Virus record (IMG/VR): IMGVR_UViG_3300009523_000001
Span: 53,666-117,665 of that record
DNA: 64,000 nt
Source: a virus
Direction: 5' to 3' (one strand)
A model generated the notes under the pieces. The model saw only the letters and a list, made by a program, of their open reading frames with translations, did no database searches and had not been told where the DNA came from. Made by a program: the position numbers and the translations under genes. Below, piece by piece: positions 10,595 through 53,834 of the stretch (the stretch's first letter is position 1; each line of letters opens with the position of its first letter).

Positions 10595-13500
10595 TTAGCC
10601 CACCCACATCAGGACGACGAGACCACTACCCCCATTTCCACCCCCGCCACCCTCACCACCCGCCGAGCTGCCCGATCCTCCGCCGCCACCACCGCCGCCA
10701 CCACTGCCGGAGTTCGCCAGCGCATTGGTTGCATTGGCACCGTCACCGCCTATGGTGCCTGAGACGGCGTTTCCGTTGCCTCCGGCCGCACCGGGCGACG
10801 CGCTGCCGCCGATGAGGTTGCTGCCACCGCCTCCACCACCACCGAGACCGCCCATCTGGCCCGTGGAGGTAGCTCCCGCAGCACCTGCGGCTCCTCCTGA
10901 GCTACCAACCGCGCTATCGAGTCCTGCACCAAAAGGCGAACCACTGCCACCCGTGCCTGGACCGCCTTGCCCGAGGGCAACACTGTAAAAAAGGTATTCT
11001 ACGGTGGCTGCGCCGGAAGTGATGGGGGGTCCACCGCCAGCCACCCCAGGAGCGGAGGTCGCAACGCTTAGCGGGTTGTTGGTCCCGCCAGAAGCGCCAG
11101 GAAATTCGGCGTACGTGGTGGCGTGCGCGACAGAAAAAACGGTTGACACATTGCCACGGCCTCCGTTGGCATTGGAAGCGGCGCCGGCGCCAGCGCCGCC
11201 CGCACCGATGCTGACGGTGAGCACGTCCCCAGGAACGGTCGAAATCATGGGTTCATACTGCGGAGTGGCGGTTCCACCACCGCCACCCCCGTACGACTGG
11301 CTGGTCCCCACTTGACCCGTCGCACCGCAGGCCCCTCCGCCGCCACCGCCGTAGCCCCACGCCTGCATCGTCGTAACGCCGGCCGGGACGGCGAAGGTCC
11401 CTCCCGCGGTGAATATCTGCGACTTGAGTGTCGCCGTCGAGGCTCCCGCTCCGGTCGGACCCGTGGTTCCTTTGGTGCCCGTCGATCCGGTCGGTCCAGT
11501 GACCGTGGATGCCGCACCGGTCGGGCCGGTGACCGACAGACCGGTCGTCCCCGTCGGTCCGGTCACAGTCGAAGCGGCACCCGTCGGACCTGAAGGGCCC
11601 GTCGGTCCGGTGACGGTCGATGCGGCTCCCGTCGGCCCTGTCGATCCTTTGCCCCCTGTCGGGCCTGTGACGAACGATGCAGCCCCCGTCGGCCCGGTTC
11701 CAAGCGCTCCCGTTGGACCGGTGACGGTCGACGCCGCTCCCGTGGGTCCGGTCGAAGTCGCGCCGGTGGCGCCTGTCGGTCCGGTCGCTCCCGTGGCGGA
11801 CGCCGCGCCCGCCGGTCCCGTGGATCCGGTCGATCCCGATGCCCCCGTTGGACCGGTGATTGTTGACGCCGCTCCTGTCGGACCCGTGACGGTGGACGCA
11901 CCCCCTGTTGGCCCCGTGACGATGGACGCTGCTCCGGTGGGGCCGGTGCTTCCGGTCGATGCAGCCCCCGTCGCGCCGGTCGGGCCGGTGACGGTTGATG
12001 CGGCTCCAGCGGCTCCCGTCGGTCCCGTGGCGATGGCGCCGGTGGCGCCCGCCGGTCCGGTCGCACCCGTGGACGATGCACTGCCTGCAGGTCCGGTCGA
12101 CCCCGACGCACCTGTCGGTCCCGTGACTGTGGATGCAGCACCCGTCGGTCCTGACGTTCCCGTCGGGCCGGTTCCAAGCGGTCCTGTTGCACCCGTTGGG
12201 CCGGTGACGGTGGATGTGGCTCCCGTCGGGCCTGTGGACGCGTGGCCGGTGGCGCCCGTCGGTCCGGTGACGGTGGATGCGGCACCGGTCGGACCCGTGA
12301 TCGATGCTCCGGTCGGTCCCGTGACGGTCGACGTTGCACCGGTCGGCCCGATCGGGCCACCGGACGGTCCGGTGGGGCCGGTCATTCCTTGAATGCCGGC
12401 ACCCCACTCGAGGATGATCTCCGCGCTGCCGCCGTTGCCGCCCGTGCCGCCCACGCCGCCCGTGGAACCGTTGCCGCCCGCGCCAGCGCCTCCTCCTCCT
12501 GCGCCGCTGTTGGCGGGCGCGTTGGATCCTGCTGACCCAGCGACACCGGTTCCGGCCGCACCGTTGCCGCCAGCGCCTCCGGCGCCGCCGATCCCCAGCG
12601 GACCGCCGCCGCCGCCGCCGCCGCCGAACCCGCCCGCCTGACCCGAGATGATCGACCCGTTCGCGCCGCCCGCACCCCCGATGTATCCCGCCGGGTTGTC
12701 GTTGCCGAACGAGGCTGTCGCTGTGTTCGTGAATGCGGCCGACCCGCCGTACCCGCCCTGCGCGGGCGCGAGCTGCGCGAGTGGACCGATGTTTACGACC
12801 GTGAGCCCGTCGGCTGTGACGGGAGGACCGCCACCAGGGCCGGTGCCACTGACGAGATCTTGGGCAGCCGACCCGCCGGAGGCCCCGGCCGCCTGCGCGT
12901 AGACCGTGAGGTGTGCGATCGAGGCGACGCTCGAGAGGCCGCCCGGCGATCCGTTCGATCCGGGCAATAGGGCCGCACCACCCACCCCGCCTGCGCCGCC
13001 GAGTCCGACGGTGAGCTGGAGTGTGTCGCCGGGGATGACCGCGATCATCACCTGCGTGGATTCGAGCGCTCCGCCGCCGCCTCCCCCTCCGTTCGATCCG
13101 TCCGCACTGGCGTTGCCGCCGTTGCCGCCCGCGCCTCCACCTCCGGCGGGGACGATCGTCGCGCGCATGGTCGTGATGCCCGGCGGCACGACGAACGGTT
13201 GCGAAGAAGTGGCGACGAAACTCGCTCCCGGGAAGATCGGTCCGGTGGATCCCGTCGGCCCGGTCGATCCCATCGCTCCCGTCGGGCCGGTGGCCCCCGT
13301 GGCGCCTGTATTCGACGCAGTGCCCGCCGGACCGGTGGATCCCGTCGGCCCGCTCGGGCCGGTCGCTCCCGTGTTGGTCGCTGCACCGGACGCTCCGGTT
13401 GGACCCGTACTTCCGGTCGGGCCCGAAGTTCCCGTCGCACCTGTGTTGGTCGCGCTGCCCGCAGGCCCCGTCGATCCCGTCGATCCCGTTGGACCGGTCG

Positions 13501-14569
13501 TCCCGGTGGCGCCGGTGTTCGATGCGGTGCCTGCCGGACCCACTGAACCCGTTGGGCCGGTCGATCCCGTCGCGCCGGTGTTGGTCGCTGCGCCGGACGC
13601 TCCCGTCGGTCCCGTGCTTCCGGTCGGACCTTTGGTTCCCGTCGCGCCGGTGTTGGACGCGGTGCCTGCCGGTCCCGTTGCTCCCGCTCCCGTCGGTCCG
13701 GTGGCGCCGGTGGCGCCGGTGTTGGACGCGGTGCCTGCCGGACCCGTGGATCCCGTCGTGCCGGTCGGTCCCGTCGCACCGGTATTGGTTGCGCTACCTG
13801 CTGGGCCGGTCGCGCCCGATGCGCCCGTGGGTCCCGTGACTGTGGATGCGGCGCCCGTGGTTCCTGTCGGTCCGGTTCCGAGCGGTCCCGTCACCCCGGT
13901 CGCGCCGGTGACGGTGGATGCGGCTCCGGTTGGGCCCGTGCTTCCGGTCGGACCTTTGGTTCCTGTCGCGCCTGTGTTGGTTGCACTGCCTGCGGGCCCG
14001 GTCGATCCCGTCGATCCCGTGGGCCCCGTGACGGTGGATGCGGCTCCCGTCGGCCCAGACGCTCCCGTCGGACCGGTCCCGAGCGCTCCTGTGGCTCCCG
14101 TCGGACCGGTGATGATCGATGCTGCTCCGGTCGGTCCCGTGTTCCCGGTGGCTCCGGTGGATGCCGCCCCTGTCGGGCCTGTCACTGTCGATGCGGCACC
14201 CGTCGCCCCCGTGCTTCCGGTCGGGCCCGTGGTTCCCGTTGCGCCGGTGTTGGTGGCGCTACCCGCCGGTCCCGTGGCGCCCGACGCGCCGGTCGGTCCC
14301 GTGACGGTCGATGCGGCGCCTGTCGCTCCGGTCGGGCCGGTGGTGGACGGACCGGTCGATCCCGTCGGTCCTGTTACGGTGGATGCAGCCCCTGTTGCAC
14401 CGGTCGGGCCTGTGGTGGACGGACCGGTTGCACCCGTCGAACCAGTCGCCCCGGTCATTCCGGTCGGCCCTTGGCTCGGTCCGGTCGGCCCCGTGCCACC
14501 GCCGCCCGATCCCGGTGCGGTCGGGTACGTCTCGCGTGCGGTCCGTCCGCGGCCGATGATGAAACTCAT
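10595..14569 (-). CDS. Collagen-like spike/fibre protein with two Gly-rich domains
   Basis: 1324 residues. Layout: anchor [19 protein letters not shown] (1-19); Gly-x-y repeats of the GPTGATG and [13 protein letters not shown] type (about 25-445); a Gly-rich globular domain starting [20 protein letters not shown] (about 447-725); a second collagen stretch (about 727-1045); a second Gly-rich domain with [20 protein letters not shown] (about 1047-1324). The globular parts resemble Gly-rich receptor-binding domains of phage tail and spike proteins. The ATG at 14569 follows GGGAGA. Likely a trimeric, fibre-forming host-recognition protein. The repeats make it prone to length change. Confidence 0.85.
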
Positions 14570-14582
14570 TCGGATCTCCCTC

Positions 14583-15764
14583 TCACGCGAGCCACGCGAT
14601 GCGCACTCCTCCCGAGCCTCCGTTGCCGCCCGCCCCTCCGGTGCCTGGAGTAACCGTTCCGTTGCCTCCGGCTCCGCCACCCCCGCCACCCGATCCGCTG
14701 TTGGCGACGGCGCTGTTGCCTGGGCTGCCGTTGACCCCCGTGGTCGATCCTCCGTTACCCCCCGCCCCGCCGGTGGCCCCGTCGCCCGCACCGCCGAAGA
14801 TGTTGGGTCCGCACCCACCTCCGCCGCCGCCGAAGCCGGGGGATCCGGGGGATGCAGTGCCGGTCGCGCCCCCGAGGCCGCCATGCTGCCCGGTGCTGTC
14901 GGGATTGTCGTTGCCGTCGAGGGCGGCGGTATTGCCCACGAGCAGCAGGCCCGACCCTCCTCCCGATCCACCCTGAGCGGGTGAAGTGCTCATGGGCAGG
15001 AAGTTCGTGACGGTGGTGGCGCGGGAGGTCACCGGAGGCCCTCCGCCGGGCGCTGCGGATGCGTCGCCCGATCCGATGGCGGTTCCGCCGGACGCGCCCG
15101 CTGCGACGACTAACGTGAGGGCGTGAGCCAGCGAAACGATGGATGACTCTCCGCCGGGCGACCCGTTGGTGTTGGCCGCACCCCCCGCACCCCCCGCACC
15201 CACGGCGATCGTGAGCGAATCGGCGGGAGTCAACCCCGTCATCACCCCGGTGGCGAGCAGCGATCCGCCGCCTCCCCCTCCCCCATTGGATCCGGTTCCG
15301 CTCGTGGCTCCAGCCTGAGCTCCGGCGCCGCCTCCTCCGCCGCCGTAGATTTCGTAGCTGGCCCCCGTCACTCCTGCGGGCACCACCCACGCTCCGGTGG
15401 CTCCCGTAAAATTCAGCACGTGCAACGTGAGACCACCAGCGCCGGTTGGTCCCGTCGATCCGGCACCGGTGGCACCCGTCGCTCCCGTAGCGCCCGTGGA
15501 CGCGGCTCCCGTCGGACCGGTGGCACCCGTGCCCGATGCGGTTCCTGCGGGACCCGTCGCGCCGGTCGGCCCCGTGACGGTGGACGCGGGGCCCGTCGCG
15601 CCGGTGGGCCCGGATCCTGTCGCTCCCGTAGCTCCAGTCGTTCCTGTTGCCCCCGACGGCCCCTGGCTCGGTCCGGTCGGGCCCGTGCCGCCTCCGCCGC
15701 CCGATCCCAGTGCGGTCGGGTACGTCTCGCGTGCGGTCCGTCCGCGGCCGATGACGAAGCTCAT
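14583..15764 (-). CDS. Shorter collagen-like spike protein
   Basis: 393 residues. Anchor [18 protein letters not shown], about 90 residues of GPTGATG-type repeats, then one Gly-rich domain starting near [20 protein letters not shown] and running to the end. It is a one-domain version of the 1324-residue neighbour, 13 bases upstream of it. Probably forms related or mixed fibres, giving alternative receptor tips. Confidence 0.85.
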
Positions 15765-27784: not shown

Positions 27785-28873
27785 GTGAGGACGTACGTCG
27801 TACAACATGGCGACTCACCGGCGAGCATCGCGGCGAAGGATTTTATGGCCGGGTGCCCGAAGTGCTCGATCGAGCTTGGACGCGTGAACGTCCACAAGCC
27901 AACGATTGTTCATCCAAACGGTTACGTCACTTTCAAAGAGCTCCGCGTCGGCGAGACTTTGCTGTTGCCCGACGAGTGGTTCCACCCGGCTCGCGAGAGC
28001 CTGCCGCCGACCTACTACAAGATCCTCCCCCACCACGACGGAGTCACGCGGGGGTCGCTCAGTGGTATGCTCGACGGATCCCCCGAGCTCGACGTGGCCG
28101 TGCCCGCGGTCGCCCAGCTCGCGGCGCTCGGTGACACCGCGTTCACTCAAGCCGTGGGCGACGCGGGCGCGAAGATCGACGCAGCGGTGAAGGAAGCAGT
28201 CGGTTCGACGTCGGCGGATGCCGCCGCCAAGGCGAAGGCCGTCCAGGACGCGACGCAGTGGGCCTGGCAACGCAATCGCGACCTCGCAGCCGCCGTCGCA
28301 GCGAACGACAGAGCCACCGTCACCCGCGCGCGACTCGACATCCAGAACGCCCTCTCGACCGCACTCGGCAACGCGCACCTGGCGATCCAGGCGCATGCCC
28401 CGTCTGCGTCTCCTGTGCCGAGCAGTTTGCAAGCGGCCGCGAAAGCCGCGGTGGCCGCCCTCTCGGCCGACCCGAATTATTGCACTTCGGTCACCCATCC
28501 CGGGACTCCGGTCAATGCCGCGGTGCACCGCTTCAAGTTGGCGTGGAACGCTTCGCAGTCTCCGAAGGTCCCCGTCGGTACGGGCACCTACGAAGTGGCC
28601 ACGACGGTGGCGCTCGCGCAGGTGGTCGGCCAGGCCCCGTCGGCGTGCGGTGCGGGTCAACGCCCGATGCCCGCACCGAAACCACCCCCACCGATCCCGT
28701 CGCCGAAGCAGGAAGCGATCACGCCGCCGAGCGATGAGAGCGGCGGCTGGTCCTCTTGGACGATTGCTGCAGCCACGGTGCTCGGAGTGGTGGCCGTAGG
28801 CGGTGTCGCGTACGTGGCGACGAGACCGAGCAAGCCCGCACGCCGATCGAGTTTCGCGCCGGAGCCCGCATGA
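27785..28873 (+). CDS. LysM-like protein with C-terminal membrane anchor
   Basis: 362 residues. An N-terminal LysM-like module (YVVQHGDSPASIAAKDF ... LRVGETLLLPDEW, about 4-68), a helical region, a segment VHRFKLAWNASQSPKVPVGT plus TYEVATTVALAQ resembling a peptidoglycan-binding repeat (about 240-275), a Pro linker, and one membrane segment (about 322-342). It probably touches peptidoglycan from a membrane. The same PG-binding pattern occurs in two proteins of the 38-44 kb cluster. Confidence 0.7.
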   Translation: MRTYVVQHGDSPASIAAKDFMAGCPKCSIELGRVNVHKPTIVHPNGYVTFKELRVGETLLLPDEWFHPARESLPPTYYKILPHHDGVTRGSLSGMLDGSPELDVAVPAVAQLAALGDTAFTQAVGDAGAKIDAAVKEAVGSTSADAAAKAKAVQDATQWAWQRNRDLAAAVAANDRATVTRARLDIQNALSTALGNAHLAIQAHAPSASPVPSSLQAAAKAAVAALSADPNYCTSVTHPGTPVNAAVHRFKLAWNASQSPKVPVGTGTYEVATTVALAQVVGQAPSACGAGQRPMPAPKPPPPIPSPKQEAITPPSDESGGWSSWTIAAATVLGVVAVGGVAYVATRPSKPARRSSFAPEPA

Positions 28874-30069
28874 TCCGGGCATTTCGTTACCCACTTCGTC
28901 CAACGAAAGCGCAGGAAGCGACGCTTGAAGCATGGCTTACGGCGAGTTGCACACTTTACAACGCTGCTCTGCAAGAACGACGAGATGCGTGGAGCAAACA
29001 GCATGTGCGAATCAGTCGCTTCGATCAGCAGAAGGAACTAACTGAACTTCGGGCCACGGATCCAGAATGGGAGATGATCCCACTCTTGGTTCAGCGCAGT
29101 GCACTACGACGTCTTGACCGAGCGTTTCTGGCGTTCTTCCGACACGTAAAGCGCGGTGAAAAAAAAGGATACCCGCGCTTTCGGTCGCGCGACCGTTATG
29201 ACTCATTTACTCTGCCTCCGCTTTTCGGGGTGCGCGCTGAAGGCGACCATGTACGCTTACCAAAACTAGGCCTGGTGAAGTTTCACCAGTACCGCGAGAT
29301 GCGTGGCCGGATGAAGCAGGTCACGGTGGGTCGCAGCAGTACGCGCGGCTGGTACGTATCGTTCGTCTGCGACCTCGGCGAAGCGCCAACGAAAATCGCG
29401 GTCCGATCGGCTATCGGCATTGATGTCGGCCTGGAAGCGTTCGCTACGCTCTCTAACGGTGAGCGTGTCGAAAATCCGCGCTTCTTCCGCGCGTCGGAGA
29501 AGACGCTAGCGCGGCGCCAGCAGTTGCTCGCTCGCAAGCAACGTGGATCGAACAGTCGACGTCAAGCTCGTACACTGGTTGCTCGTACCTACGAGCACAT
29601 TCGCAATCAGCGTCTGGATTTTGCCCGCAAGTTCGCGTGTGCGATCTTCAACCGGTTCGACCTCGTAGCGCACGAGAATCTAGAAATCGCCCGCATGATG
29701 CGCGGACATTTATCAAAATCCATTCGTGACGCCGCGTGGGGCGTCGCCATCAAAGCACTCAACTGCAAGGCGGAGGGTGCCGGCAAGTGGGTGGTGGCGA
29801 CGGATCCGCGGCGTAGCAGTATCGACTGCTCAGGCTGCGGTGAACCAGTCCCGAAGGACTTGTCGCAACGTGAGCACCGATGCCCGCAATGCGGACTCAT
29901 TCTCCATCGAGATGAGAACGCTGCGCGGAACGTTTTGGCGCGCGGCTTGCGCGCGGGGTCGTTGACCGAAGCCGTTACAACGGTAGGGCCGGAGTTTATG
30001 GCGTCGTTGACCGAAGCCGTTACAACGGTAGGGCCGGAGTTTATGGCCACTCTTGGAGCTTGCCAATGA
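28870..30069 (+). CDS. tnpB: TnpB RNA-guided nuclease (IS605/IS607-type orfB)
   Basis: 399 residues, full length. RuvC residues are present: D185 in IGIDVG, E269 in AHENLE, D348 in HRDENAARN. The zinc finger is intact (C320-x2-C323 and C338-x2-C341). TnpB cuts DNA guided by an omega-RNA copied from the element's 3' end. No TnpA lies nearby. The ATG overlaps the upstream stop and its own stop overlaps the next start, so it sits neatly inside the operon. Two copies of SLTEAVTTVGPEFMA near the end come from a 45-bp duplication. Confidence 0.9.
   Translation: MIRAFRYPLRPTKAQEATLEAWLTASCTLYNAALQERRDAWSKQHVRISRFDQQKELTELRATDPEWEMIPLLVQRSALRRLDRAFLAFFRHVKRGEKKGYPRFRSRDRYDSFTLPPLFGVRAEGDHVRLPKLGLVKFHQYREMRGRMKQVTVGRSSTRGWYVSFVCDLGEAPTKIAVRSAIGIDVGLEAFATLSNGERVENPRFFRASEKTLARRQQLLARKQRGSNSRRQARTLVARTYEHIRNQRLDFARKFACAIFNRFDLVAHENLEIARMMRGHLSKSIRDAAWGVAIKALNCKAEGAGKWVVATDPRRSSIDCSGCGEPVPKDLSQREHRCPQCGLILHRDENAARNVLARGLRAGSLTEAVTTVGPEFMASLTEAVTTVGPEFMATLGACQ
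29959..30048 (+). repeat. 45-bp tandem duplication at the tnpB 3' end
   Basis: Two copies, 29959-30003 and 30004-30048, starting TCGTTGACCGAAGCCGTTAC. This is where the omega-RNA scaffold would be encoded. CCGTT-AC-AACGG can form a small hairpin in each copy. Confidence 0.8.
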
Positions 30070-34672: not shown

Positions 34673-35989
34673 ATGGCAAGGAACCTGCTGCAGAAGAAGT
34701 CGATCAAGTACGGCGGCGAGAGCCGCGAGAAGGTGATGCGCGTGCCGTTCGGCCTGGGCGCTCCGCCCGGCGACGAGAAGGCCGCAGAGAAGTGCCTGCG
34801 ATGCGGGTTCGGCAACGTGCCCGTCGTCGAGGAGGTGGTCTGGACGATCCCCTTGCCGCTGACCGCGGAGCAGGCGCAGACGACGTTCGGCGACACGGTC
34901 AACCCGCTCAGCGGGTCGTCCGCGGTGCCCGGCGTCGCGAGCATCGACAGCACGTTCCTCATCAACGGTATCCTGCAGACGGATATCCTCGCCCAGGGCA
35001 TCGGCGTGCACGTCTTCTGCGAGCCGATGTCGTTCTCCACGATCGGCAACGCGTTCATCGCCCCGACCCAGCAGCTCGCCACCGGCTCCCCTCCGAGCCC
35101 GGACGTCTGGACGGCCAACGACTACGCAAACGGCGCCTTCGGGTCCTACGTGACTGGTCCCGATCAGGTGACCCCCGCGGTTTTCGAGTTCGGCGCGGCA
35201 ACCTGGCGCGCAGGCTGGAACTTCATCAACGCCTACCAGTTCCAGTGGAAGACGTCGCAGCGTGAGCTCGTGCTCAACGAGCTTGCGGCCGACATCTCGT
35301 ACTTCGGATCGTTCGCTGACGCCGAAGCGAGCGGCACGAGCGAGCTACCGGTCATCGACTACGTCGCGCTCGTCAACGCGCAGTACCGCGCGCAGGGTTC
35401 CGACACGATCTTCCTGCCGGTCAACTTCCGGCGGGTCGGCAGCTTCACCCCGTCGGGAGCATCGACCGGCGTCAACATCGGCATCTTCCACCCGACGCGC
35501 GACTTCGACCTCGCGCCGGTCACCTGGGGAGGCCTGCGGTGGCAGGGGTACGGCTGCCGCGGACAGATGTACCGACCGGTCGAGAGCCCGTGCTTTCTCG
35601 AGCGCGGAATCCCCATCGGGATGATCTTCATCGCGCAGGACGCCGTGCACCAGGCGCAGATGATCGAGGCGCTCACGATCGACAACGAGCCGTTCGGGAT
35701 CAACGTCCTTCCGGACGTCAACCTGGCCGCCGTCACCTCTGGAGGCAGCACCAGCCTCAGCTCGGCCGCCGTGCTCGCTCTCCTGCCTACGCTGGCCCTG
35801 CCGATGATGGAGCAGACACTCGACGGGACGGCGCTTTACGCGTCGCAGGTCGTCAACGACAGCCGCCAAATCTTCAAGGGCGGCATCCTCAAGCTCGGCA
35901 TCAAGATCAAGGGCTGGGAGATGCCTGGCGGATGGAAGTCGTACTGCTCGGAAAAGTACCCGAGCATGATGCGAGCCCACGCGGCCTGA
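34673..35989 (+). CDS. Major capsid protein candidate
   Basis: 438 residues, beta-rich, no membrane segment, well-conserved-looking composition. Notable stretches: DTIFLPVNFRRVGSFTPSG, NIGIFHPTRDFDLAPVTWGG, MPGGWKSYCSEKYP. The size fits a double-jelly-roll coat protein (about 270-400 residues or more), and a stem-loop terminator directly follows, as for a gene made in excess. An HK97-type coat cannot be excluded, but no prohead protease, portal or terminase is near. Confidence 0.5.
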   Translation: MARNLLQKKSIKYGGESREKVMRVPFGLGAPPGDEKAAEKCLRCGFGNVPVVEEVVWTIPLPLTAEQAQTTFGDTVNPLSGSSAVPGVASIDSTFLINGILQTDILAQGIGVHVFCEPMSFSTIGNAFIAPTQQLATGSPPSPDVWTANDYANGAFGSYVTGPDQVTPAVFEFGAATWRAGWNFINAYQFQWKTSQRELVLNELAADISYFGSFADAEASGTSELPVIDYVALVNAQYRAQGSDTIFLPVNFRRVGSFTPSGASTGVNIGIFHPTRDFDLAPVTWGGLRWQGYGCRGQMYRPVESPCFLERGIPIGMIFIAQDAVHQAQMIEALTIDNEPFGINVLPDVNLAAVTSGGSTSLSSAAVLALLPTLALPMMEQTLDGTALYASQVVNDSRQIFKGGILKLGIKIKGWEMPGGWKSYCSEKYPSMMRAHAA

Positions 35990-49823: not shown

Positions 49824-49832
49824 CCTTTGGTC
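49824..49832. repeat. Target-site duplication, left copy
   Basis: CCTTTGGTC, identical to 53666-53674, directly next to the transposon end. Confidence 0.9.
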
Positions 49833-49885
49833 GGCTTTGCACAATGATTGCCCTTCCCGACCCGTTCGTTGTGCAGCGGCGCGAA

Positions 49886-50155
49886 TCATTGTGCAGCCGC
49901 GTCAATGGTGGCGGCATGCCCACAGTGGGCGCAGACCCCAGCGGGCGGGTACTTCCCGGTGAGAACGTCGTCCACGCCGACGCCCACAAGCCGCGCCAGC
50001 CGGAAGGCCAGGATGGGCGTGGGCGCCCTCTTGGCCGTCGAGACGTCGACGTGCAGCGCTTTGGCGACGTTGAGCCAACCGCCCATGCTGGCTCGCAGGA
50101 ACCGCGCAGCCGTCCGCACGTTCACCGCTTCCTTCGGGCTCAGGGTGAAGTTCAC
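49886..50155 (-). CDS. Small XRE-like regulator
   Basis: 89 residues. The middle (GGWLNVAKALHVDVSTAKRA then LARLVGVGVDDVLTGKYPP) fits a helix-turn-helix, and the end has CAHCGH. ATGA overlap with the transposase, so it may tune transposition. Confidence 0.65.
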   Translation of the reverse strand: MNFTLSPKEAVNVRTAARFLRASMGGWLNVAKALHVDVSTAKRAPTPILAFRLARLVGVGVDDVLTGKYPPAGVCAHCGHAATIDAAAQ

Positions 50156-51381
50156 GACGCCACCGCCAGCGTGCGCGTGCCTGAGAACGTCGGCTCGACG
50201 CCAAGTTGGTGCATCGCATGAACGAGGCAGGACAGGTCATACGCGAGTACCTTGCAGAGCACTTCGTTCACTTGCGCGACGAAGCCCTTGCTGCGCACGG
50301 ATGGCCCAAACTTCCGCTTGATCGCGCTGAACGCGGACTCGGAGAGCGAGCGCTTGTGGTACTCGGCCGCGAAGTCGGCTTGCCGGTACATGAAGAGGCC
50401 CCACATGCGGCGCCACGCTTCCGAGCCCGTCGATCCGCTGTTCGACTTGAACGGGATGTAGGGCACAGCGCCGACGCTTTCGATCTTCGCAAGGTTCGCG
50501 TGCGAGAGGTACGCCTTGTCGGCCGAGACGGCGCGCATGTCGAAGCCGTTGGCGGCGACCGACTCGACGAGCGCAGGAAGCTCGGGGCAGTCGTTGGCGT
50601 CCGAGTCGGTCACGTGCACGGCAGCGATTACGTTGCTCGTACAGCCTACGATCGCGTGAGCCTTGAGCCATGTGGCCCGCTTCATCTCGCGCCCGTACTT
50701 CTGGTCGTACCATCGGTGATACGTCACGGTGCCAAAGCCGGTGGAGTCCACGGCGAAGCGCGTGTCGATGCTCGTGAGCGGCGTGGCGCAGTCCTGGATG
50801 AGCGCGGAGAGGAGCAGCGTCATCTCGGGCTTCTCGAAGTAGTTGAGGATCGAGTTGAAGTGCGGCGCCTTCGTCATGTGGCCCGCATCCGCGCAGGCTC
50901 GTATGTCGCTCGTCGCGCGTCGGGCGGAAAGGCCCGTCCACGACTTCATCACCATGCCGTAAACCGCGTCGGAGAGCGGGATGGGCTTGGGGCCCCGTCC
51001 GGGGTGCGGAGGCGTCACGATGCCGTCGCAGAGCGAGCGAAGGAGCGTCTGGACGGTCTCCTTCTCGGCGCACTGCGCGGCGTTGTAGTGCGTCCAGTCT
51101 TGGCCGTACGTCTTTCGGATGGTCGTGGTCTGCGTGACCGTGCGCGATCCGTCCGCGCCCTCTTCCACGGTGACCGTCTGCGAAAGCTCGACGGCCCACA
51201 TGTGCTTGCACTTGACCATGCGCTCTTCGTGGTCCGGGCACGAGCACGTCGAGGCCAGGACGTTCACGAGGTAGCCGCCCGCGTTCTTCGTCTGCGACGG
51301 GACGAACCAGAGAGCGCTCTCGACCCGCTTTATCCGCTTGTCCTGGGCCAGTGTCTTGCCGCGTTCCTCTCTTGCGTTCAT
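50152..51381 (-). CDS. DDE transposase with SWIM zinc finger
   Basis: 409 residues. An N-terminal SWIM motif CSCPDHEERMVKCKH (about 50-65), a helical DNA-binding part, and a DDE-type core including FAVDSTGFGTVTYHRW with the first Asp, AVSADKAYLSHANL with the second, and SESAFSAIKRKFG with the Glu. The family number is not assigned here. It is the only transposase between the repeats. Confidence 0.85.
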   Translation of the reverse strand: MNAREERGKTLAQDKRIKRVESALWFVPSQTKNAGGYLVNVLASTCSCPDHEERMVKCKHMWAVELSQTVTVEEGADGSRTVTQTTTIRKTYGQDWTHYNAAQCAEKETVQTLLRSLCDGIVTPPHPGRGPKPIPLSDAVYGMVMKSWTGLSARRATSDIRACADAGHMTKAPHFNSILNYFEKPEMTLLLSALIQDCATPLTSIDTRFAVDSTGFGTVTYHRWYDQKYGREMKRATWLKAHAIVGCTSNVIAAVHVTDSDANDCPELPALVESVAANGFDMRAVSADKAYLSHANLAKIESVGAVPYIPFKSNSGSTGSEAWRRMWGLFMYRQADFAAEYHKRSLSESAFSAIKRKFGPSVRSKGFVAQVNEVLCKVLAYDLSCLVHAMHQLGVEPTFSGTRTLAVAS

Positions 51382-51387
51382 ATATAC

Positions 51388-51416
51388 ACTGTAACTACGT
51401 TTGCTCCGCTCGTCAA
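51388..51416 (-). promoter_or_regulatory. Promoter of the transposase
   Basis: Minus strand: TTGACG (51411-51416), 17-nt spacer, TACAGT (51388-51393), 6 nt, ATG at 51381. It faces the next promoter, and both share TACAGTGT next to the -10 box. Confidence 0.7.
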
Positions 51417-51420
51417 GCGC

Positions 51421-51449
51421 TTGACATGGACATACAGCGTCTATACAGT
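51421..51449 (+). promoter_or_regulatory. Promoter of the ribbon-helix-helix and methyltransferase genes
   Basis: TTGACA, 17-nt spacer, TACAGT, 7 nt, ATG at 51457. Divergent from the transposase promoter, so one repressor at the TACAGTGT sites could control both. Confidence 0.7.
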
Positions 51450-51456
51450 GTCTCGC

Positions 51457-51627
51457 ATGGGTGCGAAGCGTAAGAAGGCGAGGTCAGCCAAAGGTGAGCA
51501 GGTACTCATCCGCGTGACGGCGGAAGAAAAAGAGGCGTGGACGCGGGCGGCTGAGAAGGACGATCGCGGTGGCCTGAGCGGATGGCTACGCCACTTGGCC
51601 AACGAAGCGGCCAGGAAGTCGGGCTAG
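51457..51627 (+). CDS. Small ribbon-helix-helix protein
   Basis: 56 residues: EQVLIRVTAEEKEAWTRAAE then GGLSGWLRHLANEA, a strand followed by two helices as in CopG/Arc-type repressors. Likely represses the two divergent promoters and so limits transposition and methyltransferase expression. Confidence 0.7.
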   Translation: MGAKRKKARSAKGEQVLIRVTAEEKEAWTRAAEKDDRGGLSGWLRHLANEAARKSG

Positions 51628-51629
51628 CT

Positions 51630-52697
51630 GTGGATAAGGCCAGTGGAAAAGCCGTGTGTGTTCAGGTGGGGGCAGACTGTGGGAACGCGCGCTCAGTGCG
51701 CCAGAAAAAGGCGCCTGTGGAGAGCCGTTCTGGCCGCAGAGTCGTCGGCACGGTGCATCAGACGAAGCTAAAGCTGGTGCTCGATGTTGAGCGACATCGA
51801 GGTGACGCCAGCGGGTCGGTGTTGCATGGCGATGCCTACGATCTCGGCGCCGCACTTGTCCCGAAGAGCGTTGACCTTGTGATCACCAGCCCACCGTACT
51901 GGGGGCATCGAGCCTACGGCGGCGAGCACGATTGGAAGATCCTTGACACGTGGAAGGCGGCAGGCGGCTCGGTCGAGAGTCCGCCTCCGTATGCCTGGTA
52001 TCGAGAACACGGCGGGCTTCTTGGCTTGGAGCCGGTACCCGAATGGTACGTAGCTCACCTCGTTGAAATCCTCGGGCGGATCCGCCACGCCTTGAAGCCG
52101 CGCGCGAGCGTGTGGGTCAACATCGGCGACACGTATTTCGCGCGCTGGGCCAGCATCCGAGAGAACGGGCGTCAGGGCCTCGGGAACAATCCTCGCGTCC
52201 GTCGTCGCACTCCGATGGGCGGCTACCGTCAGGAGAAACAGCTTTTGCAGGTCCCGGCGCGCTTTGCCATCGGCATGCAGGACGATCGATGGATCCTTCG
52301 CAACGACCTGATCTGGTTCAAGCCGAACGTCCCACCCCGGCCCGAGACAGATCGGCTCCGGCTTGCTCACGAACACTTCTACCACTTCGCGCTTCGCCCA
52401 AAGGAGGGTCGCGCGAGCTACTTCTACAATATGCAGGCCGTCGAGCCAGGTGCGCTCGACGTCGTGACCTACAACGTGCGGGCCGGGCGCGATGGACACT
52501 CGGCCACGTTCCCAGAGGATCTCATACGTCCCCGCATCCTCAGCTCGTGCCCCTCAGGCGGCACCGTGCTCGATCCGTTCTGCGGCACCGGAAGTGCCCT
52601 CAAGGTGGCGGTCGAGTCGGGGCGCAATGCAATCGGTTTTGACTTGTCGCCGGAGTTTGCTCAGTGCGCCAGCGAGGCGATCCAAGAGGGCGCGTGA
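51630..52697 (+). CDS. DNA methyltransferase (N4-cytosine/N6-adenine, beta class)
   Basis: 355 residues from a GTG 2 bases after the regulator stop (start uncertain). TSPPYW motif IV at about 86-91 and, at the C-terminal end, motif I DPFCGTGSALKVAVESGRN with GFDLSPEFAQCA, the order of the beta class. TSPPY favours N4-cytosine or N6-adenine transfer. It should protect the element's host from the endonuclease encoded opposite. Confidence 0.85.
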   Translation: MDKASGKAVCVQVGADCGNARSVRQKKAPVESRSGRRVVGTVHQTKLKLVLDVERHRGDASGSVLHGDAYDLGAALVPKSVDLVITSPPYWGHRAYGGEHDWKILDTWKAAGGSVESPPPYAWYREHGGLLGLEPVPEWYVAHLVEILGRIRHALKPRASVWVNIGDTYFARWASIRENGRQGLGNNPRVRRRTPMGGYRQEKQLLQVPARFAIGMQDDRWILRNDLIWFKPNVPPRPETDRLRLAHEHFYHFALRPKEGRASYFYNMQAVEPGALDVVTYNVRAGRDGHSATFPEDLIRPRILSSCPSGGTVLDPFCGTGSALKVAVESGRNAIGFDLSPEFAQCASEAIQEGA

Positions 52698-52702
52698 GCG
52701 AG

Positions 52703-53554
52703 CTACAGCCCAGCCTTGCGACGAACGCGGTCCAAGAAGTCGGCTCTAGCCGTTTCCGACACCTCAAGGGTGGCGGACATTGCCGCGACGTACTTGTCCA
52801 GCGTCGTCCGTACGACCTGACGCACGGGGAACTCGTAGCTTCCGTCCGGCTGGCGAGCGCCGTAATCGAACGTCATGAACGTGATCTCCCACGGTCCGGT
52901 CACGGTCTCGAATGGGATCCGCGTGTGGAGGTACTCGAACGGCCGATCCTGCATCAGGACGTAGAAGGGAACGTCACCGACGTTTTTGAGATAGGTGCCC
53001 TTCGTGGCGACCTGCAAACCGAGGCGCTTGTAGATGTTCGCCATGTTGACCCCGTAGGCCACGGTGTCCCTCCGGTTCTCAGCGAGCGACGCCGCAGTGA
53101 AGTACGAGCGCCATTCGTCGACCTTGCTGTCCTCCCACGCCTTCCACGCCGGGCCGACACCGCCGCCCCGCATGTCGATGGCCTGCGTCTCGATGGCGAT
53201 GATGTTCTCGATGCAGCCCACCTCGAACGCCACATAATCGAACGAGGTGCGCGGGCTCGTAAGCACGATCTCGGGGACGAGCCGGCTCTCCGTCGCGCCG
53301 AAGTGGTCGCGTTGGGCCAGCCCGATCGGTTCGCCGTCGAGCCGATGGTCGCACACGGCGTAGGTGCGCTGGGCGCCCATGTCGCCCGCCGCCGCGTAGG
53401 TCACGGAGCAGTTGCCGTACCCGTATTGGCGGTACTTCTCGCACGGTGTCCCCGTGAAGCGACACCAGCGCCGCGCCCGCGCGTCCAACGCCTCAGGGGT
53501 GGCGGCGTCAGCCGCGTAGCCGAACGCCTCGATGATCGGGAACGGCTTTGGCAC
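52703..53554 (-). CDS. NotI-family restriction endonuclease
   Basis: 283 residues from a GTG. The early Cys arrangement CRFTGTPCEKYRQYGYGNCS followed by YAVCDH fits the metal-binding Cys cluster of NotI-like enzymes. Further on, EVGCIENIIAIETQAID contains the PD-(D/E)XK-type acidic/Gln site, and GGGVGPAWKAWED, YGVNMANIYKRL and VATKGTYL match my memory of the family. Recognition site unknown (NotI itself reads GCGGCCGC). Tail to tail with the methyltransferase. Confidence 0.75.
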   Translation of the reverse strand: MPKPFPIIEAFGYAADAATPEALDARARRWCRFTGTPCEKYRQYGYGNCSVTYAAAGDMGAQRTYAVCDHRLDGEPIGLAQRDHFGATESRLVPEIVLTSPRTSFDYVAFEVGCIENIIAIETQAIDMRGGGVGPAWKAWEDSKVDEWRSYFTAASLAENRRDTVAYGVNMANIYKRLGLQVATKGTYLKNVGDVPFYVLMQDRPFEYLHTRIPFETVTGPWEITFMTFDYGARQPDGSYEFPVRQVVRTTLDKYVAAMSATLEVSETARADFLDRVRRKAGL

Positions 53555-53612
53555 GCCACCCGATGCTCGCGCGTGGGTACGCCAGGGCCAAGTTTCCTAA
53601 CGCGTCGCGCAA

Positions 53613-53834
53613 TTATTGTGCAGCCTCCCGAATCGTTGTGCGGGCGCTCTTTATTGTGCAAAGCCCCTTTGGTCCCTCGATCGCGCCACCAGCGCGCCCA
53701 CCGGCGCGTCGTGCGACGCCCGTCGCTCGGACGACAGCGATCGTGGCCATCGTCGTGAGTGCGATCGCGCTCGCCACGGCCACCACCGCGCCGACGTACA
53801 CGCGGCGGCCGAGGAACCGAACCGACGGGGGCAT
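53613..53834 (-). CDS. Small membrane protein, 3' end disrupted by the transposon
   Basis: As it stands 73 residues, the last 17 read into the transposon end. Joining the two flanks across one copy of CCTTTGGTC gives a 60-residue protein ending EGPKESSD, stop at 49810. VRFLGRRVYVGAVVAVASAI is a loose version of the GR-x-V-x-G tag run into a membrane segment. An antisense frame is also open, so orientation is likely but not certain. Confidence 0.5.
   Translation of the reverse strand: MPPSVRFLGRRVYVGAVVAVASAIALTTMATIAVVRATGVARRAGGRAGGAIEGPKGLCTIKSARTTIREAAQ
53666..53674. repeat. Target-site duplication, right copy
   Basis: CCTTTGGTC, directly after the right inverted repeat. Confidence 0.9.

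Follow-up and report, generated by a model that had tools for sequence, protein, structure and literature searches.

The stretch of DNA analysed here, a window of 64,000 nt (positions 53,666-117,665 of IMG/VR record IMGVR_UViG_3300009523_000001), raises the question of how a restriction-modification (R-M) gene pair came to lie beside a transposase in a virus-like genome, and whether these genes form a single mobile unit. The record, 117,665 bp in length, is listed as a virus in IMG/VR and carries a phage-type integrase and a lytic transglycosylase; "virus-like" is the fitting term because neither a capsid protein nor a terminase was identified. In our judgement the locus is very probably an IS903-like cargo transposon carrying a type II R-M pair that has inserted into this genome, and we infer from it transposition, regulation, the activity and specificity of the R-M enzymes and a selective role.

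The original prediction placed a complete transposon at 49824-53674. A real element does lie there, although that span counts in both target duplications, and the element proper occupies 49833-53665 (3833 bp), with five open frames between its inverted ends. These ends, proposed as 13-bp repeats, are perfect: GGCTTTGCACAAT stands at 49833-49845 on the plus strand and at 53653-53665 on the minus strand and nowhere else in the window, and a search with <=1 mismatch again returns 2 sites, as compared to 0.02 in shuffled sequence. The target duplication is an exact 9 bp as claimed, with CCTTTGGTC at 49824-49832 and again at 53666-53674. Subterminal TTGTGCAG sites were found at 49869, 49889 and 53616, alongside a variant, TTGTGCGG, at 53635; they sit within a 32-nt direct repeat that is present at both ends with 81% identity, the left copy (49869-49900, plus strand) holding two TTGTGCAG sites and the right copy (53616-53647, plus strand) holding TTGTGCAG and TTGTGCGG. 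The count of the TTGTGCAG 8-mer in the window (4 vs 1.28 expected) is by itself unremarkable and it is the placement that is remarkable. The perfect ends, the exact duplication and the gene content together support the view that the transposon is complete.

The closest parallel among known elements is with IS903, which carries GGCTTTGTTGAATAAATC at both ends and makes 9-bp duplications (PMC9769513). The window element likewise has GGCTTTG ends, a 9-bp target duplication and a homologous DDE domain, that of IS903 scoring 64 bits against the family profile. The terminal repeats diverge from those of IS903 after GGCTTTG, however, the DDE parts are ~26% identical, and IS903 has a shorter transposase without a SWIM finger, no HTH partner and no cargo. 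Compared with the IS5/IS903 group as a whole, the ends and the duplication agree, while the transposase scores 127.2 bits against NCBIfam transpos_IS5_2, below the cut-off of 140, and the element carries five genes where the group is cargo-free. Judged from its sequence, we regard the element as a unit transposon that belongs to the IS5 superfamily, in a lineage akin to IS903.

The predicted SWIM-DDE transposase was borne out by Pfam and a motif check: the 409-aa product of 50152-51381 (minus strand) has an N-terminal SWIM zinc finger (4e-5) and an IS5/IS903-like DDE domain (DDE_Tnp_1, E 1.5e-18), both above the Pfam cut-offs, and the catalytic residues D212, D288 and E348 are present. The transposase stop is overlapped by 4 nt by the frame of an 89-aa HTH-like protein with a C-terminal CxxCG (49886-50155, minus strand). 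Homologues of this protein adjoin further transposases of the family, the same 4-nt overlap is seen in 8/9 compared, and the protein is predicted to be the coupled partner of the transposase. The window copy of this partner is without ~6 residues in the HTH region as compared to eight homologues. Divergent from the transposase lies a gene for a 56-aa ribbon-helix-helix-like protein of the NikA/MobC type (51457-51627, plus strand); a family-library search found no match of its own, and it is named for its likeness to the proteins of two related loci, L060 (where the protein matches NikA-like) and L066, in which a similar small protein is likewise divergent. In some other copies the place of this gene is taken by one for a small zinc-ribbon protein. 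Both small DNA-binding genes accompany the transposase in related transposons whose cargo is different, and this conservation makes them look like transposon genes.

A divergent promoter pair is predicted at 51388-51449 (TTGACG-17-TACAGT on the minus strand and TTGACA-17-TACAGT on the plus strand). These are the only two sigma-70-like sites found in 4.1 kb, they face away from each other, and each -10 TACAGT lies inside TACAGTGT. The TACAGTGT pair is a possible candidate for a shared operator, a function that we infer, and it is plausible that the shared repressor of the original prediction, acting at 51388-51449, would restrain the transposase and the R-M genes together. As for movement, the transposase might bind the repeated subterminal motifs and act on the GGCTTTGC ends, insertion occurring by a 9-bp staggered cut. 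The HTH protein of the overlapping frame may regulate or assist this process, and the divergent ribbon-helix-helix protein probably does so too.

When the two flanks are joined, a membrane-protein-like frame of ~59 codons ending GAIEGPKESSD* is restored; the insertion lies in the final codons of this small gene. An independent assembly bears on this junction: IMG/VR record 3300009700_000002 (G600, L096) matches the 2,833 bp on the left side of the element with 100% identity, and its first letters are precisely the duplicated 9 bp, the match stopping at 49832. Alleles with and without the element, if both were present, would produce such a break, since they part at this point in a de Bruijn assembly; with a repeat present elsewhere, one would rather find part of the element on the contig. 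The break is indirect evidence that the insertion is polymorphic, and the insertion is probably recent. Searches of IMG/VR for empty-site and right-flank patterns found neither. The transposase is present in 0/26 related virus-like records, and its absence from all of these points to a single insertion.

The alternative that survives best, and one we nevertheless consider unlikely, is that the element is decayed and no longer moves, and that its R-M pair may or may not persist as an R-M system of the usual chromosomal type. The residues missing from the HTH region in the 89-aa protein could be read in this way, as could the fact that no further copy of the element was found in the IMG/VR record. 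Against this, nothing is lost from the DDE and SWIM motifs, from the two enzymes or from the 13-bp ends, the 9-bp duplication has no mismatch, and the independent assembly breaks at the junction as it would at a site that is still polymorphic. The HTH-region deletion also counts against our preferred reading of a cargo transposon, as do the IS5 score below its cut-off, the lack of empty-site and right-flank patterns in IMG/VR, the absence of the transposase from the 26 related records, the absence of the R-M pair from other elements and the C5 methylase partners of the endonuclease's nearest homologues.

The endonuclease of the proposed cargo is a predicted 283-aa restriction enzyme of the NotI/EagI family (52703-53554, minus strand), recognised by homologues, profiles and predicted fold. 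The Cys cluster that had been noticed is in place (Cys31/38/49/68), together with D106/E122/Q124. Eight relatives with 51-63% identity were collected from bacterial genomes, and in an alignment of 9 sequences C31, C38, C49, C68, D106, E122 and Q124 are invariant. The D106/E122/Q124 triad aligns with D160/E182/Q184 of NotI (in a sequence that agrees with PDB 3BVQ), residues that are themselves invariant in NotI, a Nonomuraea homologue and plasmid enzymes which NCBI annotates as NotI family. In NotI these three residues form the metal site, and the enzyme binds iron through Cys4. The suggested check against a NotI-family profile gave a clear match (hhalign, 97.4%, E 1.3e-11), and the predicted structure, with a pLDDT of 71.6, matched NotI in Foldseek (3c25/3bvq, E 6.6e-8 to 7.5e-6, prob 1.00), NotI being the sole PDB match at E<=0.001. 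The endonuclease and NotI (PDB 3BVQ/3C25) thus share a fold, Cys4 and the equivalents of D160/E182/Q184, whereas they have ~18% identity and the window protein is 100 residues shorter, being without the middle segment of NotI. Alignment and structure model alike indicate that the endonuclease is related to NotI with its active site and Cys cluster intact; with catalytic residues retained in both enzymes, the original prediction came through its own test.

General libraries are of little help with this family, as no Pfam or NCBIfam model matches the endonuclease, nor NotI itself, and the PADLOC model REase_II PDLC03465 matches the two alike with a weak 18.7 bits. The eight-base site of the original prediction (GCGGCCGC or another) is one possibility for the window enzyme, but the NotI family also includes EagI-like enzymes. 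PDLC03465 is an EagI-type model; what we take to be the EagI sequence, checked only against this model, scores 715.9 bits, and EagI is distant from the window endonuclease. Counts of CGGCCG, GCGGCCGC and other words in the window were uninformative for deducing a recognition site by word avoidance. No close relative of the endonuclease was found in viral contigs, plasmids or phages, and its profile matched two partial sequences and nothing else in 379 Myxococcota genomes. In a Nonomuraea locus (L013, 4420-5643 and 5962-7949) a true NotI homologue with 41% identity adjoins an endonuclease-methylase pair of the window type, placing two NotI-fold endonucleases side by side.

The TSPPY methyltransferase was likewise recovered as a beta-class DNA methyltransferase (51582-52697, plus strand; Pfam N6_N4_Mtase, 9.8e-32; PADLOC MTase_II, 1.6e-146), its true start being uncertain as homology begins at ~51810. 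The motif order is TSPPYW and then DPFCGTGS; beta-class N4-cytosine methylases usually have TSPPYW as their motif IV, and the window enzyme is probably of the N4-cytosine type. Its gene lies tail-to-tail with that of the endonuclease, and the tail-to-tail pair recurs in four actinobacteria (L010-L013) with a methylase 67-68% identical to that of the window. At four further loci (L006-L009, from Myxococcota, Pseudomonadota and Planctomycetota) the tail-to-tail neighbour of the endonuclease is a C5 cytosine methylase, identified from the motifs FSGAGG and GPPCQGFS. In a tree the window endonuclease groups with L006-L009 (split 100/99) while its methylase is of the actinobacterial type, and the partners have therefore been exchanged at least once. 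As the endonuclease's closest homologues have a C5 methylase for a partner, it is the actinobacterial pairs that suggest a cognate specificity for the pair in the window. These proteins appear to represent a new branch of NotI-like enzymes, the endonuclease of which is found with unrelated methylases in different bacteria.

This variation in the methylase, C5 in L006-L009, lends something to a second alternative, namely that the endonuclease is a NotI-fold Cys4 nuclease with another role, in transposition or against the host, and that the methylase is solitary. We hold this to be very unlikely, as the active site and Cys4 are conserved, a methylase stands beside the endonuclease, tail-to-tail, in the relatives examined, and plasmid NotI-family enzymes adjoin methylases too. 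Returning to the R-M reading, the adjacent genes and the intact TSPPYW, DPFCGTGS and D/E/Q motifs are those of a type II system, and the two genes form an apparently intact, predicted NotI-family type II R-M pair. The space from the transposase to the right end would then serve as a variable cargo bay, occupied here by this pair, and the endonuclease and methylase together would attack unmodified DNA and be lethal to cells or genomes from which they are lost. The pair may serve in defence; stabilisation of the element by killing cells that lose the pair is an equally good account of its use.

R-M genes on transposons have already been reported, and for PaeR7I the IS-linked movement of R-M genes with selection by the endonuclease has been demonstrated (PMC3031569). 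In IS-linked and composite-transposon systems of this kind R-M genes likewise move with insertion sequences, but those systems have separate IS copies on either side or co-integrate, whereas in the window the R-M genes lie between a single pair of ends served by a single transposase. While R-M systems spread horizontally, it is rare to see so clean a case of one transposon holding both genes between intact ends together with its own transposase.

The transposase also allows the element to be placed in a family. A genome scan with the single sequence gave no match; relatives with 40-60% identity came from a search of Myxococcota genomes, the phylum being taken from L006/G001. The surroundings of these relatives yielded nine complete copies besides that of the window, of 3.8 to 9.3 kb, all of which start with GGCTTTGC (in one of them GGCGTTGC) and are flanked by exact duplications of 9 bp, or 10 bp in one case. 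A strict search for a 9-bp direct repeat with inverted ends around the transposase succeeded at 9/13 family loci as compared to 2/325 Markov controls. Repeated motifs lie directly internal to the ends and vary from element to element, as expected if each transposase recognises its own sites. All ten copies hold further genes beyond the transposase, and the cargo varies by copy (N6_N4 methylase, PemK/MazF toxin, exonuclease, NYN, RadC); for instance, one copy carries a PemK/MazF toxin with a P63C protein, and another a PolB-like exonuclease with an NYN protein. The suggestion that ends and cargo be sought in other genomes thus led to GGCTTTGC-type ends in nine copies, while none of the other elements carries the R-M pair. 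That the boundaries are mere chance, with a fortuitous inverted repeat around R-M genes and a transposase that are simply neighbours, might be argued from R-M pairs outside the window lying away from this transposase, yet it can be set aside as exceedingly improbable given that homologous transposases elsewhere lie, with different genes, between ends of this kind and 9-bp duplications, and that the predicted boundary is exactly where an independent assembly stops.

No copy of the transposase was found in the genomes of the endonuclease relatives, and viral contigs, plasmids and phages hold only distant IS5 types. A sister transposon (L042, 6023-11007) has a decayed transposase and carries as cargo a methylase and an XRE regulator, the methylase being a 591-aa protein of the N6/N4 type with a weak Mrr-like C-terminal match. 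The literature held nothing on point for the family, for SWIM-IS5 elements or for NotI/EagI homologues, in a comparison made without ISfinder and REBASE; neither the transposon family nor the present combination seems to have been described, and the component parts are of known kinds. We tentatively speculate that an undescribed cargo-transposon family carries R-M, toxin and nuclease genes from one myxobacterial chromosome to another and also into viruses, and that here a polymorphic NotI-type insertion in a virus population arms the virus or prophage against competitors, a reading we hold as possible, with the balance slightly against it. The family is definable and its cargo replaceable, and its ends allow other passengers to be found directly. 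When it travels in a transposon, an R-M pair can both shield its carrier against unmodified DNA and penalise loss.

Other features of the window concern the virus-like genome itself. A 438-aa protein (34673-35989) has 29 relatives in IMG/VR with 44-100% identity and no PHROG match, and may be the chief virion protein in a group not yet described; its structure model (pLDDT 42) was unusable. A TnpB-like gene of the IS200/IS605 kind at 28756-30069, judged by eye, marks a possible second mobile element, and 10595-15764 encodes collagen-like proteins with Gly-X-Thr repeats that are probably fibre proteins.
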